DNA from: Kineococcus sp. NBC_00420
GTDB taxonomy: Bacteria; Actinomycetota; Actinomycetes; Actinomycetales; Kineococcaceae
Assembly: GCF_036021035.1 (NCBI RefSeq)
Contig: NZ_CP107930.1
Span: 1,426,001 to 1,490,000 of the forward strand
Direction of reading: 5' to 3'
DNA: 64,000 nucleotides
The translations under genes were made by a program, and so were the position numbers. Below, piece by piece: positions 53,690-63,751 of the stretch (position 1 is the first letter of the stretch; every line of letters starts with the position of its first letter). The notes under the pieces are model-generated. The model ran no database searches, was not told the DNA's origin, and saw nothing but the letters and a program-made list of their open reading frames with translations.

Positions 53690-53707
53690 GGCAAGTTCAC
53701 ACTTGCC
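53690..53707. promoter_or_regulatory. ArsR operator candidate
   Basis: GGCAAGT (53690-53696) and ACTTGCC (53701-53707) form a perfect 7-bp inverted repeat with a 4-base spacer, touching the ArsR start codon. This suggests autorepression. Confidence 0.55.
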
Positions 53708-53740
53708 TGTCAAGGGAGCGGCGGCGGTGCTAGCGTGTGA

Positions 53741-53753
53741 GCAAGCGCTTTCC
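53741..53753. promoter_or_regulatory. LacI-family-type operator before the acyltransferase fusion gene
   Basis: GCAAGCGCTTTCC has a perfect AAGCGCTT core and lies 20 bases before the GTG at 53773. Its minus strand begins GGAAAGCGC, the same half-site as at 4419-4432. Confidence 0.45.
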
Positions 53754-53772
53754 AGTGACGGGAGGACGACCG

Positions 53773-55395
53773 GTGAGCAGGTTCGACGTCGAACCCTGGG
53801 GATTCCGCCGCGAGGCGACCGCGGCCGAGCGGGAGGAGCAGCAGGCCTTCCACGACGAGCACCCGAAGTGGTCGCTCGGCGTCGACACGTTCGTCAGCCG
53901 GCTGGCCGCCGTCGAGACCGACTCCCTGGTCCTGGGCGACCGTTCCTACGTCGCGGCGAACGCCTACCTCAGCCACGACGTCCGCTTCGGCGCCGACTGC
54001 ACCGTGAACGTCTTCGCCGTGGTCCGCGGCGACGTGCGCTGCGGGGACGGTGTCCGCATCGGGGCCCACACGTCGATCCTCGGGTTCAACCACGGCATCG
54101 AACCCGGGACGCCGGTGTTCCGGCAGCCGCTGAGTTCGCGCGGGATCGTCATCGGCGACGACGTCTGGATCGGGTCGAACGTCGTCGTGCTCGACGGCGT
54201 CCACGTCGGGGACCACGCCGTCCTCGCCGCGGGCGCGGTCGTCACCCGGGACGTCGCCGCCGGGGCGATCGTCGGCGGGAACCCGGCCCGTCGGATCCGC
54301 TGGCGGGTTCCGCCGGCCGGGGCAGGCGACGACCTGGCGACCGCGCTCGGGCAGTTCGAGGAACGGGCCCGGTCCCAGGCCGGCGACGTCCTGGCGAGGT
54401 GCTGGAACCCGTCGCTACCCGGTGGCCAGTTCACCGACTCCCCCGGCGCCGGCCCCACCGTCCGCGCCCAGGCCGACGCCCTCGAGATCGCCGCCTACCT
54501 GCTCGACGACGCCCCGCCGCAACTCCCCCGCGACGAGCAGTTGGCCCGGCTCACGGCGCTCCAGGACCCGGAGACGGGGTTGGTGCCGTTGTTCGGCGCC
54601 GACGGCCTCCCCGTCCCGGGAACCCCGGACGCCGGCGACGGCAACGTGCTCTACCACGCACTCTCCGTGGGCTACGCCCTCGACGTGTTCGGTGAGCGGT
54701 TCTCGCGCCCGATCGGGTACTTCGCCCGGATGACCGCACCAGAACTCCTGGAGAACCTCGACGGCCTCCCGTGGGACGGCCGGGCGTGGGGTTCCGGGGC
54801 CTGGGTGGACGCGGCGGGGACCGCGTTCCGCTGGAACCTGGCCCGCGGGGAGCGCGGGGTCCCCGGAACCCTGGAGGCGCTCTTCGGCTGGCTCACGGCG
54901 CGCGCCGCGCCCGGTACCGGCATGTGGGGGACCCCCGCCCCGGGCGAGGGGGTGCTGCAGGTCGTCAACGGTTTCTACCGCGCGAGCCGCGGGACCTTCG
55001 CCCAGTTCGGGGTTCCGCTCCCCCACCCCGAACGCGTCGTCGACACCGTCCTGACCCACCTCGGCGACCAGAGGCTGTTCGCCCCCGAACGCCGCAACGC
55101 CTGCAACGTCCTCGACGTGGCGCACCCCCTCTGGCTCGCCGGCAAGCAGACCCACCACCGCCGCGAGGAGGTGGTCACGGCCGCCCGGGGGCTGCTCGCC
55201 GACGCGCTGCGCACCTGGCAGGACGGCAGGGGTTTCTCGTTCCTGGTCGGCCGCGAACCGGGCCTGCAGGGGACCGAGATGTGGCTGGCCATCGTGTGGT
55301 TGCTGGCCGACCTCGCCGGCTGTTCCGACGTCCTGCGCTACCGCCCCCGCGGCGTGCACCGCCCCGAAGCGGCGATCTCCGCCGTCCCGCGCTGA
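53773..55395 (+). CDS. Hexapeptide acyltransferase fused to an uncharacterised helical domain
   Basis: 540 residues. Residues about 50-190 form a left-handed beta helix of the maltose-acetyltransferase type ([20 protein letters not shown] with its catalytic-type His, [33 protein letters not shown]). The remaining 340 residues are predicted mostly helical, with [15 protein letters not shown] and [19 protein letters not shown], reminiscent of alpha/alpha-toroid proteins. GTG 53773 has GGAGGA 6 bases upstream. It could O-acetylate a sugar or glycan held by the second domain. The substrate is unknown. Confidence 0.7.
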
Positions 55396-55409
55396 TCCGA
55401 CCGTCGAGG

Positions 55410-55455
55410 GGAACGTTCCGCGGCTCGGGAGGCCGCACGAGCCGCGGAACGTTCC
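55410..55455. terminator. Perfect 18-bp stem-loop
   Basis: GGAACGTTCCGCGGCTCG (55410-55427) and its exact complement (55438-55455) enclose a 10-base loop, 14 bases after the acyltransferase fusion stop. There is no U-tract. Confidence 0.7.
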
Positions 55456-55479
55456 ACTTCCCGGCGGTAGCCTGACGAC

Positions 55480-55697: not shown

Positions 55698-56312
55698 CTA
55701 ACCCATCGCGGCGACGAAGGCGGCGGCCCGCTCGGTGATGCCCGTCCAGTCCGCGGCGGCGACCAGTTGCGGCGGAACGACTCCGGTACCCGCGGTGACC
55801 GCCGCCGCCCCGGCGGCGAGGTACTCGGCGGCGTTGCCCGCGCTGACCCCGCCGGAGGGGACGAGCCGGACGTCGGGGTAGGGGCCGTGCAGATCGGTCA
55901 GGTAGCCGGGTCCGAGACGACCCGCGGGGAACACCTTGACCGCAGCCGCACCGGACTCGTGCGCGACCAGGACCTCGCTGGGGGTGAACGCGCCCATGAG
56001 AAACGGGATCCCCGCCGCCACCGCGGCCGCCGCCACCGCGGGCCGCAGGCCCGGGGTGACGAGGAACCGGGCTCCGGCGTCGATCGCGGCCCGCGCGTCG
56101 TCGTCGTCCAGGACCGTGCCGACGCCGAGGGAGATCCCCTCGGCACCGGCGGCGTCCCGCAGGTGGCGCAGGACGTCGGGGGTCGTGAACGTCAGTTCGA
56201 CGGTGCGGATCCCGCCCGCGGCGAGCGCCGCGCACAGGGCCCGGGCGTCGGGGATCTCCGGCGCGCGGACGACGGCCACCACCCGGTCGGTGAACAACTG
56301 CTCGAGGCTCAT
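55698..56312 (-). CDS. eda: 2-dehydro-3-deoxy-phosphogluconate (KDPG) aldolase
   Basis: 204 residues, family length. E39 in VELTFTTPD and the Schiff-base lysine K126 in AAVKVFPAG are in place, and VPSGGVSAGN is the phosphate-binding loop. It splits KDPG, or the galacto form, into pyruvate and glyceraldehyde 3-phosphate. ATG 56312 overlaps the deacylase stop (ATGA). As third gene of the minus-strand operon, opposite a PfkB kinase, it supplies the last step of a sugar-acid pathway. Confidence 0.9.
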   Translation of the reverse strand: MSLEQLFTDRVVAVVRAPEIPDARALCAALAAGGIRTVELTFTTPDVLRHLRDAAGAEGISLGVGTVLDDDDARAAIDAGARFLVTPGLRPAVAAAAVAAGIPFLMGAFTPSEVLVAHESGAAAVKVFPAGRLGPGYLTDLHGPYPDVRLVPSGGVSAGNAAEYLAAGAAAVTAGTGVVPPQLVAAADWTGITERAAAFVAAMG

Positions 56313-57892
56313 GCGGTGACTCCTGTCGAGGGGTGGTGGCGCAGCGCCCGACCGGGCAGCGCGTCGGTGCGCCGGCCGTCGGCGACGACGGGCTCGCCGC
56401 CGAGGAGGACGTGCGGGATGCCGACGGCCTGGCGTCGGGGGTGCTCGAAGGTGGCCCCGGCGGCCACCGTCGTCGGGTCGAAGAGGACGAGGTCGGCGAC
56501 CGCGCCCGGCCGCAGGACTCCGCGGTCCCGCAGCCCCAGCCGCCGGGCCGGACGGGAGGTCATGTGGGCGATGCAGTCCTCCAGCCCGAGGACCCCCTCC
56601 TCCCGCACGTAGTGCCCGAGGTAGTGCGGGAAGGTCCCCCAGGCCCGGGGGTGCGGGCGGGCACCGACGAGGAGGCCGTCGCTGCCGACGGTGTGGCGCG
56701 GGTGGGCCATGATGGCGCGGACGTTCTCCTCGTGGCCGACGTGCTGCAGGATCGTCGTGCCGAGGCGGTCGCGACGCAGGACGTCGACGAACATCTCGAA
56801 CCCGGTGATCCTGCGCCCCACGAGGTCCGCGAGTTCCGCGATCTCCGGGTGGCGGACCCCGGAGACCTGCACCGTGTCCCAGTCGACCGTGACGCCGTGG
56901 CAGCCGTCGGACCCCTCGACCTCGAGGGCGTACCGGATGCGCCGCAACGCCTCCGGGTCCCCGAGGCGGAGCAGGGTCGCCTCCGGGCCACCCTCGCTCG
57001 CCCAGCTCGGCAGCACCGCCGCGAGGGTGGTGGACCCGGGCAGGTAGGGGTAGGAGTCCAGGGTCACGTCGACACCGTCGGCGAGCGCCGCGTCGACGAG
57101 GTCGAGGAGTTCCCCGCCGCGGCCGGCGTTGACGCCGAAGTTCATCGTGGCGTGGGTGAGGTGCAGGGCGCAGCCGGCGCGGCGGGCGACGTCGACGACC
57201 TCGGCGTAGGCCTCGAGGGCGCCCTTGCCGTAGGAACGCTGGTGGGGGGCGTAGAAACCTCCGGCCGCACCGACGACCTGGCACAACGCCACGAGTTCCG
57301 CGGTGTCGGCGTACATGCCGGGCGTGTAGGTGAGCCCGCTCGACATCCCGACGGCACCTTCGGCCAGGCCGAGTCCCACGAGTTCCCGCATGCGCTGGAG
57401 TTCCGCCGCGGTGGCGGGGCGGTCGGTGGTTCCGACCACGACCATCCGTACCGTGCCCTGGGGGACGAGGTAGCAGACGTTGACGGCGGCGCCGCGGTCG
57501 ACGCGGTCGAGGTAGGCCCCGACCCCGGGCCACCCGAGGTCGTCGTCGGGGATCCCGTTCCACCCCGCGAGCTGGTCGCGCAGGACGGCGAGGGCGGCGG
57601 CGTCGACGGGGGCGTAGCTCAGCCCGTCCTGGCCGACGACCTCGGTGGTGACCCCCTGGGTGGTCTTCGCGAGGTGCTGCGGGTCGGTGACGACCGCGAG
57701 GTCGGAGTGGGCGTGCATGTCGATGAAACCCGGCGACAGCACGAGCCCGTCGGCCCGCAGCTCCCGCGCCCCGGCGGTCGTCCCGACGTCCCCGAGTTCC
57801 GCGATCCGGCCGTCGACGACGAGGGCGTCACCGCGGCGGCCGGGTCTCCCCGTGCCGTCGACGATGGTGGCCCCGCGGACGACGAGGTTCAC
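56309..57892 (-). CDS. D-aminoacylase family amidohydrolase
   Basis: 527 residues. The metal motif is FIDMHAHSDLAV (H60, H62). Other family blocks are GVTTEVVGQDGLSYAP, MSSGLTYTPGMYAD, LTHATMNFGVNAG and HTVGSDGLLVGARPHP, the catalytic-Asp region. It should remove an acyl group from an N-acyl-D-amino acid or N-acetyl amino-sugar acid. GTG 57892 overlaps the PLP enzyme stop (GTGA), and its own stop overlaps eda. The context suggests the deacylated product is passed to the PLP enzyme. Confidence 0.85.
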   Translation of the reverse strand: MNLVVRGATIVDGTGRPGRRGDALVVDGRIAELGDVGTTAGARELRADGLVLSPGFIDMHAHSDLAVVTDPQHLAKTTQGVTTEVVGQDGLSYAPVDAAALAVLRDQLAGWNGIPDDDLGWPGVGAYLDRVDRGAAVNVCYLVPQGTVRMVVVGTTDRPATAAELQRMRELVGLGLAEGAVGMSSGLTYTPGMYADTAELVALCQVVGAAGGFYAPHQRSYGKGALEAYAEVVDVARRAGCALHLTHATMNFGVNAGRGGELLDLVDAALADGVDVTLDSYPYLPGSTTLAAVLPSWASEGGPEATLLRLGDPEALRRIRYALEVEGSDGCHGVTVDWDTVQVSGVRHPEIAELADLVGRRITGFEMFVDVLRRDRLGTTILQHVGHEENVRAIMAHPRHTVGSDGLLVGARPHPRAWGTFPHYLGHYVREEGVLGLEDCIAHMTSRPARRLGLRDRGVLRPGAVADLVLFDPTTVAAGATFEHPRRQAVGIPHVLLGGEPVVADGRRTDALPGRALRHHPSTGVTA

Positions 57893-59172
57893 CCGAACAC
57901 CGTGCGCACCCAGTCGACGAGCACGGGTTGCGGGGCGAGGGCGTCGTCGACGACGGGCAGGAGCTGCCACTTGTCGAACGTCGTGCAGGGGTGGGACAGA
58001 CCGAGGCGGACGACGTCACCGACCCGCAGTTCCCGGGCGTCGCCGGTCAGGGACAGGAACGTGTGCTGGTCGTTCATCGCGGTGACGGTGGCTCCCTCGA
58101 GGGGTTCGGTGTCGCCCGTGGCCGCGCGGCGCACCGCCTGCACCTCGGGGAGCCCTTCGTCGAAGGCGAGGTCGCGCTTGCCCGCGTCGCCGAGCGCGAG
58201 ACCCGGTTCGGGGCGGGAGACGATGCGGACCCACCCGTGGAGGGCGGCGCGCAACTCCCCCTCGCTGCCGCGGTTCATCGGGGTGATCCCGCGGTAGAAC
58301 CCGTCGTCGTGGGCGACGTAGGCGCCGGCCCGCACGACGACGCGCGTCGGGGCTCCCCGCGTCCCGTCGGGGTCGTGCGCCCCGGCGAGCACGTCGGCCA
58401 CGGCGTCGAAGTAGGCGCTGCCACCGGCGCTGACGACGAGTCCACCGGGGACGTCTCCGTACAGACCCTGGTCCAGCAGCGTCCAGTGCAGCGCGGCGAG
58501 GTCGGAGAGGTAGGTGCGGACCACGACGAGGCTCGCGGGGCTCGCGTCGTGAGCCAGCGCTCCCTCGTAGCCCGCGACCCCCGCCAACCGCAGGCCGGGG
58601 GTCGCGGCGACGGCCCGGGCGACCTCCGCCGCGGCACTGCGGGAGCGGGCTCCGGTCCGGCCCCCGGTAGCCCCGAGTTCGACGAGGACGTCGACGGGTG
58701 CGACGGCGTCGGCGACGTGCGGGGCCATCGCCTCGACGACGTCGACCCCGTCCACCCAGGTGAGGACGCGGGCGGTGCGGGGTTTGCCGAGGAACCGCAG
58801 CACCTGCGGGTCGAGGACGGGGTAGGCCGCCAGGACCCAGTCCAGCCCCTCGCGCAGGGCCACGGTGAGCTGCCACCCGGTCGCGACGGTGATCCCGATC
58901 GCGCCGGCCTCGAGCTGGGCCCGCCAGATCGAGGGGGCCATCGTCGTCTTGCCGTGCGGGGCGAGGTCGACACCGGCCGCGGCGGCCCAGGCGGCCATCG
59001 TCGCGACGTTGCGGGTCAGGGCGGTGGCGTCGAGGGTGACGAGCGGGGTGGGGAGGTCGGCCAGGCCGGGGCGGGTCGCCACGAACTCGTCGGCCGGAAC
59101 CCCCCAGGCGTCGACCGGCACCGCCTTGCCCCCGGCCGGGAGCGCGCCGATCTCCGGGGCGTCGTACACCAC
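57889..59172 (-). CDS. Fold-III PLP enzyme of the D-serine dehydratase / D-threonine aldolase family
   Basis: 427 residues from GTG 59172, with GGAGG 5 bases upstream. The alanine-racemase-type barrel contains DLAPHGKTTMAP with the PLP lysine K75 and LVELGATGGRTGARS. The C-terminal beta domain ends in LSHPCTTFDKW; the His and Cys of HPC (394, 396) are the metal ligands of DSD1-like enzymes. Members eliminate ammonia from D-serine or D-glucosaminate, or cleave D-threonine. It is first in the deacylase-aldolase operon, which favours an amino-sugar-acid dehydratase role (inference). Confidence 0.82.
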   Translation of the reverse strand: MVYDAPEIGALPAGGKAVPVDAWGVPADEFVATRPGLADLPTPLVTLDATALTRNVATMAAWAAAAGVDLAPHGKTTMAPSIWRAQLEAGAIGITVATGWQLTVALREGLDWVLAAYPVLDPQVLRFLGKPRTARVLTWVDGVDVVEAMAPHVADAVAPVDVLVELGATGGRTGARSRSAAAEVARAVAATPGLRLAGVAGYEGALAHDASPASLVVVRTYLSDLAALHWTLLDQGLYGDVPGGLVVSAGGSAYFDAVADVLAGAHDPDGTRGAPTRVVVRAGAYVAHDDGFYRGITPMNRGSEGELRAALHGWVRIVSRPEPGLALGDAGKRDLAFDEGLPEVQAVRRAATGDTEPLEGATVTAMNDQHTFLSLTGDARELRVGDVVRLGLSHPCTTFDKWQLLPVVDDALAPQPVLVDWVRTVFG

Positions 59173-59197
59173 ACCGACCTCCACTGCGTCGTGACTG

Positions 59198-59216
59198 CGT
59201 TGCGCGCTGCGCAACG
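59198..59216. promoter_or_regulatory. Perfect inverted repeat, likely IclR operator
   Basis: CGTTGCGC (59198-59205) and GCGCAACG (59209-59216) are perfectly complementary with a 3-base spacer, between divergent starts at 59172 and 59257. An IclR gene lies in the plus-strand operon, so one regulator could control both directions. Confidence 0.6.
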
Positions 59217-59256
59217 GACGTTGCAGCAGCGGTCGACGCCGTTCTAGCATCGCGCC

Positions 59257-60192
59257 GTGTCCCGGTCAAAGGTCCTGTGCGTCGGCGAGGCGATGGTCGT
59301 GCTGACGCCCGCCCGGGACGTCCCCCTCGCCGAGGCGGACCTCTTCGTCCGCACCGTCGGCGGCGCGGAACTCAACGTGGCCCTGACCCTCGCCCGCCTC
59401 GACGTGGACGTGAGCTGGCTCTCGCGCCTGGGCGACGACGGGTTCGGTGAGCACGTCCTGGCCCTCGCCGACGGGGTCGGCGTGGACGTCGGCGCCGTCG
59501 AACTCGACCCGTACCGGCCGACCGGCCTCTACGTCAAGGCTCCGGGGGTCGCCGCCGACGGGTCCCGGCGTTCGCGCATGCACTACTACCGCAGCGGGTC
59601 CGCGGCCTCGGCCCTCTCCCCCGAGTTCCTCGACCGACCCGCCGCGCGCGCGGCCCTGGCCGAGGCCGACACCGTCCACGTCAGCGGGATCACACCCGGC
59701 CTCTCCGACTCCGCGGCCGCGTTCTGCGTCGAACTCGCCGACCGGGCGCGGGGCAGCGCCACGACGCTGTCGGTGGACCTGAACCACCGCCCCGCGCTGT
59801 GGCGCGGACGTAGCGAGGAACCGCTGCGCCGGTTGGCCGCCGCGGCCGACGAGGTCCTGCTCGGCGCCGACGAGGCGCGGGTGGTGTTCGGGACCGACGA
59901 CCCGGCCGCGCTGCGCGCGGCCCTGCCGGGCGCCCGGCGGATCCTGCTGAAGCAGGAGGAGCACGGCGTGCTCGTGCTCGAACCGGGGAACCCCGACCGT
60001 CACGTCCCCGCCCTGACGGTCGACGTCGTCGAGCCCGTCGGCGCCGGTGACGCCTTCGCCGCCGGCTACCTCGCCGGGCGCGCCCACGGGTTCGCCGTCG
60101 ACGCCGCCGTCGGGTTCGGTCACCGCTGCGCCGCCGCCGCTCTCGTGACCCGGGGCGACCGCCCCGCCGAGGTCCCGGCGTTGACGGGGTGA
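59257..60192 (+). CDS. PfkB family sugar-acid kinase (KDG kinase-like)
   Basis: 311 residues. VLCVGEAMVVLTPARDVPL and TVGGAELNVALTLARLDVDV are the N-terminal sugar-binding signature of KDG-kinase-type proteins, and VEPVGAGDAFAAGYLAG the C-terminal anion hole with catalytic D265. The pairing with eda supports phosphorylation of 2-keto-3-deoxygluconate. It starts with GTG 59257. The stop overlaps the IclR start (GTGA). Confidence 0.87.
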   Translation: MSRSKVLCVGEAMVVLTPARDVPLAEADLFVRTVGGAELNVALTLARLDVDVSWLSRLGDDGFGEHVLALADGVGVDVGAVELDPYRPTGLYVKAPGVAADGSRRSRMHYYRSGSAASALSPEFLDRPAARAALAEADTVHVSGITPGLSDSAAAFCVELADRARGSATTLSVDLNHRPALWRGRSEEPLRRLAAAADEVLLGADEARVVFGTDDPAALRAALPGARRILLKQEEHGVLVLEPGNPDRHVPALTVDVVEPVGAGDAFAAGYLAGRAHGFAVDAAVGFGHRCAAAALVTRGDRPAEVPALTG

Positions 60193-60959
60193 GCCAGTCG
60201 CTGCTGCGCGCCCTCGGGCTGCTCGACCTCGTCGCCGGCGGTACGGCGACCCTGGGGGAACTCGCCGAGGCGGCGGGGGCCCACAAGAGCACCGTCCTGC
60301 GGTTGCTGCGGGTCCTCGAGGACGCGGGCTACGTCCACCACGACGAGCAGCACCGCTACGCCCTCGGCTCCCACCTGTTCCGCCTCGCCCAGCAGGCCCT
60401 GGACTCCTTCGACGTCCGGGCCGTGGCCGCCCCCCGGTTGCGGCGCCTGCGCGACGACGTGGGCCAGACCGTCCACCTGGCGGCCTTCGACGGTTCCGTC
60501 GCCACCTACGTGGACAAGCTCGAACCTCGCAGCGCCGCCGTCCGGATGGCCTCACGCATCGGGAACACCGCCGCGCTGCACTGCACCGCCGTCGGGAAGG
60601 TGTTCCTCGCCGACCTGCGGCCTCCCGACCGGGCGGAACTCGTGGCGACCCTGGAGTTCCCCCGGCTGACGACGAGGACCCTCACCGGCCCCGAGGAACT
60701 GCTCGCCGAGGTCGCGACCGTCGCCGCGGCGGGCTGGGCGCAGGACCACGCGGAGAACGAGACCTTCGTCAACTGCGTCGGCGCCCCGGTCCGCGGCGCC
60801 GACGGACGCGTCCTCGCCGCGGTCTCGATCTCGGTGCCCGACGTGCTGCTCCCCCACGAGGCCGTCCTCGACCTCGTGCCCGCCCTGTTGTCCGCGACCG
60901 CGGACATCTCCCGCTCCTGCGGGTTCCTCGACCACCCCGACGAGAAGGAGAACTCCTGA
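60189..60959 (+). CDS. IclR family transcriptional regulator
   Basis: 256 residues. The N-terminal winged helix reads LRALGLLDLVAGGTATLGEL, then AGAHKSTVLRLLRVLEDAGY. The C-terminal ligand domain has ALHCTAVGKVFLADL, GWAQDHAENETFVNCVGAPV and AAVSISVPDVLLP, all IclR hallmarks. It is co-translated with the kinase and RidA and probably binds the 59198-59216 repeat, with a pathway intermediate as effector. Confidence 0.92.
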   Translation: MSQSLLRALGLLDLVAGGTATLGELAEAAGAHKSTVLRLLRVLEDAGYVHHDEQHRYALGSHLFRLAQQALDSFDVRAVAAPRLRRLRDDVGQTVHLAAFDGSVATYVDKLEPRSAAVRMASRIGNTAALHCTAVGKVFLADLRPPDRAELVATLEFPRLTTRTLTGPEELLAEVATVAAAGWAQDHAENETFVNCVGAPVRGADGRVLAAVSISVPDVLLPHEAVLDLVPALLSATADISRSCGFLDHPDEKENS

Positions 60960-62700: not shown

Positions 62701-62878
62701 CCCCCGGAGACCGCCGACAGCTCGACCCGGATGGTGTCACCGGACTCGGGGAAACCCTTCCGAACCCGAGCTCGCCACCCGGCGGTAGGCGCTTGCCGGT
62801 GACCGCGGGGCCGGGCACGCTGTGCACCGGCTGAGCGGCGACCCGCCGCCGTACTCCGACGTCGTGGAGGAAGAACCC

Positions 62879-63751
62879 GTGCTGCGCATCCCCTCGTCCC
62901 GCCGGCTGGTCGCCACCCTCGCCGCGCTCGCCGCCACCGGTGGCGCCCTGCTGAGCGCCGCCGCACCGGCCACCGCCGCCACCTGTTCCGACGTCGAGGT
63001 CGTCTTCGCGCGCGGCACCGGCGAGACGCCCGGCCTCGGCATCGTCGGCTCGCCCTTCGTGCGGGCCCTCACGAGCGAGCTGTCGGACCGGACCGTCACC
63101 TCCTACGCCGTGGACTACGCCGCCAACACCTCCCAGACCAGCGCCGGCCCCGGTGCCACCGACATGAGCGCCCACGTGCGCGAGGTGGCCGCGGCCTGCC
63201 CCTCGACCCGGTTCGTCCTCGGGGGCTACTCCCAGGGCGCGACCGTCACCGACATCGCGGTGGGCATCCGCACGGGTACCACCACCGGCACGCCCGTCCC
63301 CGCCGAGCTGTCCGGTCGCGTCGCCGCGGTCGTCGTGTTCGGCAACCCGCTGGGGCTGAGCGGACGCACCATCGCCACCGCCAGCACCACCTACGGGACG
63401 AAGTCGAAGGACTACTGCAACAGCAGCGACACCGTCTGCGGCAGCGCCCCCAAGACCGGGACGGGCAGCCACCTCAGCTACCCCAGCAACGGAGCCACGA
63501 CGGAGGGCGCCCGGTTCGCGGCGGGTCTGGTGCGCGCCGGGGGCGGACCCACCACGCCCACCCCGACCCCCACCCCGACGAGTTGCGTGCGCGACAGCAC
63601 CCGGGCCCACGTCGCCGCCGACCGCGCCGTGAGCCTGTACGGCTACGCCTACGCCCGCGGTTCCCGCGACGCCCTGGGCCTGACCAGCAGCTACACCATC
63701 GTCTCGCTGCGCCAGGTCGACGGCGGCTGGACCCGCGTCGCCGCCTGCTGA
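62879..63751 (+). CDS. Secreted cutinase with C-terminal esterase-type binding module
   Basis: 290 residues. The signal peptide ends near residue 33 (PATAA). The cutinase domain has VVFARGTGETPGLGIVG and nucleophile S118 in GGYSQG; D184 and H198 are likely partners, with paired Cys nearby. A Pro/Thr linker (221-235) leads to a 55-residue module with C236 and C290 and the pattern AHVAADRA...GYAYARGS..ALGL. That pattern resembles the substrate-binding domain of extracellular PHB depolymerases. GTG 62879 has GGAGG 8 bases upstream. Confidence 0.85.
   Translation: MLRIPSSRRLVATLAALAATGGALLSAAAPATAATCSDVEVVFARGTGETPGLGIVGSPFVRALTSELSDRTVTSYAVDYAANTSQTSAGPGATDMSAHVREVAAACPSTRFVLGGYSQGATVTDIAVGIRTGTTTGTPVPAELSGRVAAVVVFGNPLGLSGRTIATASTTYGTKSKDYCNSSDTVCGSAPKTGTGSHLSYPSNGATTEGARFAAGLVRAGGGPTTPTPTPTPTSCVRDSTRAHVAADRAVSLYGYAYARGSRDALGLTSSYTIVSLRQVDGGWTRVAAC

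Follow-up and report, generated by a model that had tools for sequence, protein, structure and literature searches.

A hexapeptide acyltransferase fused to a predicted (alpha/alpha)6 toroid in Kineococcus, with a possible role in glycan catabolism

The window, that is, the whole 64,000-nucleotide stretch of Kineococcus sp. NBC_00420 DNA analysed here, contains a gene that joins a left-handed beta-helix acyltransferase to a predicted (alpha/alpha)6 toroid. The same fusion is present in six bacterial phyla and in the archaeon Haloarcula, and its neighbours are often genes for the use of plant-type sugars. While the family of the N-terminal domain (N-domain) is already known, its constant C-terminal partner (C-domain), a predicted toroid with what is probably a conserved pocket, is new and has no Pfam family model. 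The protein may be a cytoplasmic, sugar-induced two-domain enzyme of glycan catabolism, acetylating a sugar, probably of the uronate type, that the toroid binds or also converts; we give this reading about an even chance.

The fusion gene: local signals and distribution

The gene is a single intact open reading frame of 540 codons, from a GTG start codon at 53773 to a stop codon at 55393-55395 (Table 1). It stands alone in the window, with divergent ArsR and VOC genes on one side and a convergent cluster (55698-60956) on the other. A joint operon with that cluster is ruled out, because the cluster lies on the opposite strand and a hairpin intervenes. Its genes encode a KDPG aldolase (passing the TIGR01182 cut-off), an Amidohydro_3 enzyme, a PLP enzyme like D-serine dehydratase, a PfkB kinase that comes closest to KDG kinases (under cut-off) and an IclR/KdgR-like regulator, and the cluster resembles the OngB-OngC-KdgK pathway for GlcNAc1A (oxidised chitin) described in PMC9537276.

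Table 1. Features of the fusion gene and its surroundings (window coordinates)
Feature	Position	Strand	Basis
Fusion gene: left-handed beta-helix acyltransferase and (alpha/alpha)6 toroid (predicted)	53773..55395	+	ORF, Pfam, homologues spanning both halves
N-domain, residues 1-183, hexapeptide acyltransferase	53773..54321	+	PF00132, H107 alignment with 2ic7
C-domain, residues 188-540, predicted (alpha/alpha)6 toroid	54334..55392	+	AF2 model, VIA-align, invariant residues
LacI-type operator AGCAAGCGCTTTCC	53740..53753	+	sequence; LacI family by resemblance
Probable promoter TGTCAA, 17 nt, TAGCGT	53708..53736	+	read by eye
Shine-Dalgarno-like ribosome-binding site GGGAGGA	53760..53766	+	sequence
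18-bp perfect inverted repeat, 10-nt loop, terminator-like	55410..55455	+	folding vs shuffles

The earlier note had credited the gene with its own operator and terminator. The operator stands, being conserved in five of the seven orthologue-bearing genomes of the genus (see below), and TAGCGT is placed before it in loci L104 and L105 as well. The terminator is likely: the arms of the 3' inverted repeat (55410-55427 and 55438-55455) form a strong hairpin, the region 55393-55475 folding at -52.1 kcal/mol (z -4.9; 0 of 200 shuffles equally stable), and no T-run follows the repeat. Before the divergent ArsR gene lies a perfect palindrome, GGCAAGT-TCAC-ACTTGCC (53690-53707), which is likely the ArsR operator; L104 has a similar one.

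Relatives are fused, not split. A scan of the whole collection confirmed 276 of them, and the best 80 of the 276 cover both halves except for L091, which lacks the N-domain and whose match begins at a contig end. The fusion reads through in all 37 aligned members; together with its spread over six bacterial phyla and Haloarcula, this rules out a misjoin, which the earlier note had named as a possible objection alongside separate genes in relatives. Among 72,556 plasmid records the C-domain was found in 136, and at least 80% of the whole protein in 135. The fusion is complete in 13 of 59 genomes of relatives, the other listed matches there being to the hexapeptide part, with a few extending beyond it; in G024 two match rows fall inside one open frame. 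Searches with the C-domain alone covered the plasmid records and, as a profile, 396 genomes of the phylum, which, with five candidates scored in each genome, gave at least two matches, own genome included. A stand-alone C-domain gene was not met in these scans (plasmid records, best 80 of 276 relatives, 396 genomes).

In a tree of 52 rows, rooted at its midpoint, the Actinomycetota split off (100/99) from the rest, in which Verrucomicrobiota, Chloroflexota, Planctomycetota, Rhizobiales, Paenibacillus and Haloarcula are intermixed. The grouping of Haloarcula with Paenibacillus (100/94) suggests that the gene moved between domains of life; Haloarcula, L074 and L082 are long-branched with an unusual letter make-up. 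The annotated records covered here label the family by its N-domain only ('acyltransferase', 'DapH/DapD/GlmU-related protein', 'putative acetyltransferase'), and open-licence PMC papers yielded no literature on the fusion, its homologue accessions or tags, or DUF2264, a recurrent neighbour.

Two domains and a predicted pocket

The N-domain bears out the maltose-acetyltransferase-like assignment of the earlier note. It carries hexapeptide repeats (PF00132, 59.7 bits against a cut-off of 27, E 1.5e-16), and among solved sequences maltose transacetylase 2ic7 is the closest (E 1.5e-17 over residues 55-177, and 2.8e-18 in a separate comparison). All 37 homologues conserve H107, which aligns with the THPL histidine of 2ic7, the catalytic residue of maltose acetyltransferase (MAT); N79, Q118 and W132 are also invariant. 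Acetyltransfer by this domain is thus well supported by family. The N-domain sequence and histidine position are like those of the maltose and galactoside O-acetyltransferases (MAT, LacA; 2ic7, 1ocx, 1kqa), but the fusion protein has an extra toroid of about 350 residues and falls far under the equivalog cut-offs (57.7 of 314 bits for maltose, NF007499; 41.5 of 347 for galactoside, NF007076).

By fold, the closest proteins to the N-domain are AntD (3vbn, 3vbi; Z 22.4-23.3 over about 165 residues, 16% identity) and several other amino-sugar N-acyltransferases, and the NeuD and WbbJ NCBIfam models score on the fusion protein, under cut-off. These matches would suit a biosynthetic enzyme that modifies a capsule, cell-wall or nucleotide sugar via AntD-like N-acyltransfer. 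However, the annotated stretches and the scanned neighbours of the fusion gene include no named glycosyltransferase (many neighbours being unannotated), and the neighbouring regulators and uptake systems point to catabolism, so that a biosynthetic role seems improbable. AntD itself acts on a dTDP-amino sugar (entry title) and, with about 187 residues, has no toroid. A hexapeptide acyltransferase with a second sugar-active domain is also found in bifunctional FdtD (4mzu), an N-acetyltransferase/ketoisomerase by its entry title. The partner domain of FdtD has a different fold, and its role lies in nucleotide-sugar biosynthesis.

The helical C-terminal region, in which the earlier note saw features of alpha/alpha-toroid proteins, is indeed predicted to be a toroid. 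Modelled alone with AlphaFold (AF2), it has a mean pLDDT of 96.0 and a pTM of 0.93 and contains twelve helices of at least 10 residues, which were assigned by alternation, not from coordinates, as six outer and six inner ones. The full-length monomer model reaches pLDDT 93.1 with a pTM of 0.71, so the relative placing of the two domains is uncertain. The fold search of the C-domain, a check that the earlier note had proposed, agrees with the model: the top VIA-align match is 1jcq_B (Z 20.3, 290 residues aligned, rmsd 3.8), and protein prenyltransferase beta chains fill all of the best 50 rows (Z 17.2-20.3, 272-296 aligned, 10-13% identity). In Foldseek the best match is 6j7f_B (E 9.9e-4, the sole E below 0.001), and the matches mix prenyltransferases with exo-oligoxylanase, other glycosidases, cyclases and cellobiose epimerase.

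Both searches could be taken to mean that the toroid is a bacterial relative of prenyltransferase beta chains or terpene cyclases, fused to an acyltransferase in an enzyme of isoprenoid metabolism or protein prenylation. The farnesyl and geranylgeranyl transferase beta chains (1jcq_B, 4ehm_B) share the alpha/alpha toroid, with 276-290 residues aligned at a Z of about 20, but they are only 12-13% identical to the fusion toroid, which has neither an alpha subunit nor a eukaryotic protein-modification setting. Protein prenyltransferase beta chains have a zinc site with a DxC motif. This motif is absent, in a sequence-only test, from all 37 members, where the residue at D448+2 is A (17), I (10), V (9) or L (1). 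PF00432 is not among the seven Pfam families matched by the 37 members at E <=10 (HMMER filters drop weak matches), and across 59 relatives it matches none in the own genome and gives two weak matches elsewhere. Sugar-active toroids lie at nearby Foldseek E-values (2drq, 0.020; 5z3d, 0.034), sugar genes adjoin the fusion gene in several lineages, and no isoprenoid gene occurs among the annotated neighbours. Given an identity of about 12% and the missing DxC, the match probably reflects a shared alpha/alpha-toroid fold rather than family membership, and an isoprenoid role is the least probable of the readings considered. Of the two substrates that the earlier note had suggested, a glycan or a terpenoid, the first is favoured by the sugar-type operator and the glycan-catabolic neighbours of several lineages, while the second is unsupported, with a PF00432 match, DxC and isoprenoid genes among the annotated neighbours all lacking.

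Nor does the C-domain prove to be a known domain of unrelated role, which the earlier note had allowed for. Residues 188-540 reach no Pfam cut-off in the window protein or the 37 members, the best Pfam row on the window protein's C-domain being SH3_KIN17_C (E 0.12), and the NCBIfam matches listed (25 of 48) all lie on the N-domain. Against solved structures the single C-domain sequence matched only 6f0t (Pizza6-SFW, E 0.021, 24 residues) and 2r55 (E 0.42), neither convincingly, and the C-domain profile matched none. One of 37 members matches MGH1-like_GH weakly (E 0.016 at full length, 0.13 for the domain alone), a match that found no support in hhalign (probability 1.3%). In four small local alignments, hhalign probabilities of the toroid with GH88, MGH1-like, heparinase II/III-like and DUF2264 families were 0.1-1.3%.

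The alignment of 37 members has 59 invariant columns, 27 before the C-domain and 32 within it. Inner helices hold 25 of these 32 and outer helices none. Thirteen of the 17 polar or aromatic C-domain invariants fall within the nine-residue start of an inner helix, and these six starts make up 54 of 353 C-domain positions (Fisher p about 1e-8, with both the nine-residue cut and the helix assignment of our own choosing). Invariant near the inner-helix starts are R231, D235, E238, Y294, W339, D346, N399, Y402, R403, C444, D448, E502 and W504. In toroid enzymes, that end of the inner helices usually lines the active site. The clustered invariants therefore probably mark a conserved central pocket, its position following from conservation and the predicted fold. 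Among the C-domain invariants are five acids, four arginines, one cysteine and one histidine. This composition speaks for catalysis rather than binding alone, with a polar and perhaps acidic substrate, and the predicted pocket looks catalytic.

Operator and gene neighbourhoods

The operator AGCAAGCGCTTTCC, which we take by resemblance to be a LacI-family site, has a single match in the window at up to two mismatches, where 0.09 was expected and 9 of 100 shuffles had one. Seven genus genomes carry the orthologue, and in five of them the exact pattern RGCAARCGCTTWCC lies upstream of it. The other two, G001 and G010, have no exact copy before the orthologue, and in both another gene is close upstream. 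Across 11 genus genomes there are 17 exact sites and none of the reversed pattern. In the own genome, sites with one mismatch are no commoner than the reversed control (five each), so only exact sites were used. One such inexact copy (62784-62797) lies in the window, 24 nt ahead of where a cutinase gene (62822-63748) is called to start. A LacI gene was not found next to the operator.

Besides the five sites before the fusion gene, 12 lie elsewhere: three before a 459-aa Gfo/Idh/MocA gene (Gfo459), three before a 384/378-aa Gfo followed by DUF993, one before an operon of an apparent alpha/beta hydrolase and then Gfo, and five by less informative genes, with two of these near ABC exporter genes, one near an MFS transporter gene, one near DUF624 and one in the gap between a histidine kinase and a rhamnogalacturonan lyase. 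At L152:5482-6636 there is a 385-aa protein that is alpha/beta-hydrolase-like by eye (GLSGGG, GHSF) and has no Pfam match. Gfo/Idh/MocA-DUF993 pairs thus stand behind the same LacI-type operator in three genus genomes (L169, L170, L171). Two of these three, G003 and G009, lack the fusion yet have the exact operator; G002 and G007 have neither. In Microbacterium L026, a Gfo-DUF993 pair adjoins the fusion gene itself and is about 65% and 49-54% identical to the operator-preceded pair of the genus.

Upstream of the L026 fusion gene, and overlapping it by 4 nt, is a run that comprises DUF2264, a solute-binding protein, two permeases, a 228-aa protein and a 2-hydroxyacid dehydrogenase; downstream come Gfo/Idh/MocA, DUF993 and a xylose-isomerase-like barrel. 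Direct scans in L026 cover DUF2264, Gfo, DUF993 and the barrel, and the remaining names, apart from the 228-aa protein, are taken from scanned cluster members. G010, of the window's genus, has a similar run that starts with the dehydrogenase and continues with DUF2264, a solute-binding protein, permeases, a 225-aa protein and, immediately before the fusion gene, ThuA; a divergent heparinase-like gene lies at the edge. In Cryobacterium and other Microbacterium, the genes immediately upstream encode a heparinase II/III-like protein and a DeoR/periplasmic-binding regulator. Agrobacterium vitis has uptake genes, GH88, DUF624 and DUF2264 upstream; Martelella has DUF2264 and a hydroxyacid dehydrogenase alongside; and Haloarcula has IclR, GH88 and DUF2264 downstream. 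Two GH28 genes precede the fusion gene on a Streptomyces plasmid (L096), while L111 has an alpha-galacturonidase-like gene upstream (848 of 1300 bits, under the model cut-off) and GH28 downstream. Single loci have adjoining GH2 (L052), GH35 (L022) or GH3 and GH16 (L021) glycosidases, and two Rhizobiales loci follow closely behind a solute-binding-protein gene (L084, scanned; L079, by position). DUF2264, itself uncharacterised, recurs beside the fusion gene in Actinomycetota, Rhizobiales and the archaeon Haloarcula (L108, L026, L098, L099, L146), and its hhalign probability to the toroid is 0.2% (small alignment).

After 14 duplicate fetches were dropped, 101 gene-called loci remained, and in 27 of them the fusion gene overlaps or starts within 30 nt of a same-strand upstream gene. 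DUF2264 was found in the fetched flanks of 17 loci, heparinase-like genes in 13 (including L108, added separately), GH28 in five, GH88 in three and any of the four in 25, leaving 76 with none; these counts describe the sample and are not rates, since its taxa are redundant and at 20 of the 101 loci one flank is shorter than 4 kb. Besides the 76 loci without a marker family and the isolated position of the gene in the window, several loci count against a sugar role. On four annotated Rhizobium plasmids the neighbours are proline/hydroxyproline, Rieske or GGDEF genes, not sugar genes; at four Streptomyces loci the scanned neighbours are CHAT, ABC, ABC-2 and protein-kinase genes; and L094 has URO-D upstream.

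The lacA gene sits at the end of a sugar operon, lac, and the fusion gene likewise sits in sugar operons in several lineages, ending sugar-uptake operons in L023, L026, L070 and L108. Together with MAT as the nearest solved sequence, this position would fit a LacA-like safety valve, in which the beta-helix alone is catalytic and acetylates non-metabolisable sugars for export, the toroid being a degenerate sugar-binding domain that confers specificity. If the domain served for binding only, it would hardly be expected to keep 17 polar or aromatic residues, including five acids and four arginines, invariant across 37 members and six bacterial phyla, and we regard this explanation as rather unlikely, though it is the strongest of the alternatives.

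Proposed function

Under the preferred reading of a sugar-induced catabolic enzyme, a putative LacI-family repressor at the conserved operator would release expression in the presence of sugar. The N-domain, presumably trimeric, would use acetyl-CoA to acetylate a sugar hydroxyl (or amino) group, H107 serving as the base. The sugar would be held in the central pocket of the toroid, and the toroid probably also converts it, whether by hydrolysis, by elimination or by epimerisation. Uronate-type mono- or oligosaccharides supplied by the linked ABC transporters, lyases and glycosidases are the likely substrates; it is the gene neighbours that suggest this class. A more specific and highly improbable version is acetylation-primed degradation, in which the beta-helix O-acetylates a hydroxyl to make a leaving group and the toroid, a new (alpha/alpha)6 family, eliminates acetate or cleaves the activated glycoside. 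Such a reaction would explain why no stand-alone C-domain gene was met.

A domain of 350 residues that has a strictly conserved predicted pocket and occurs in six bacterial phyla and an archaeon thus goes unnamed, because the annotated records covered here name the family by its N-domain only. The linked DUF2264, Gfo-DUF993, GH88, heparinase-like and galacturonidase-like genes reduce the candidate substrates to a panel that can be tested. Should the toroid prove to be an enzyme, it would represent a new sugar-active toroid family in which acetylation is built in.
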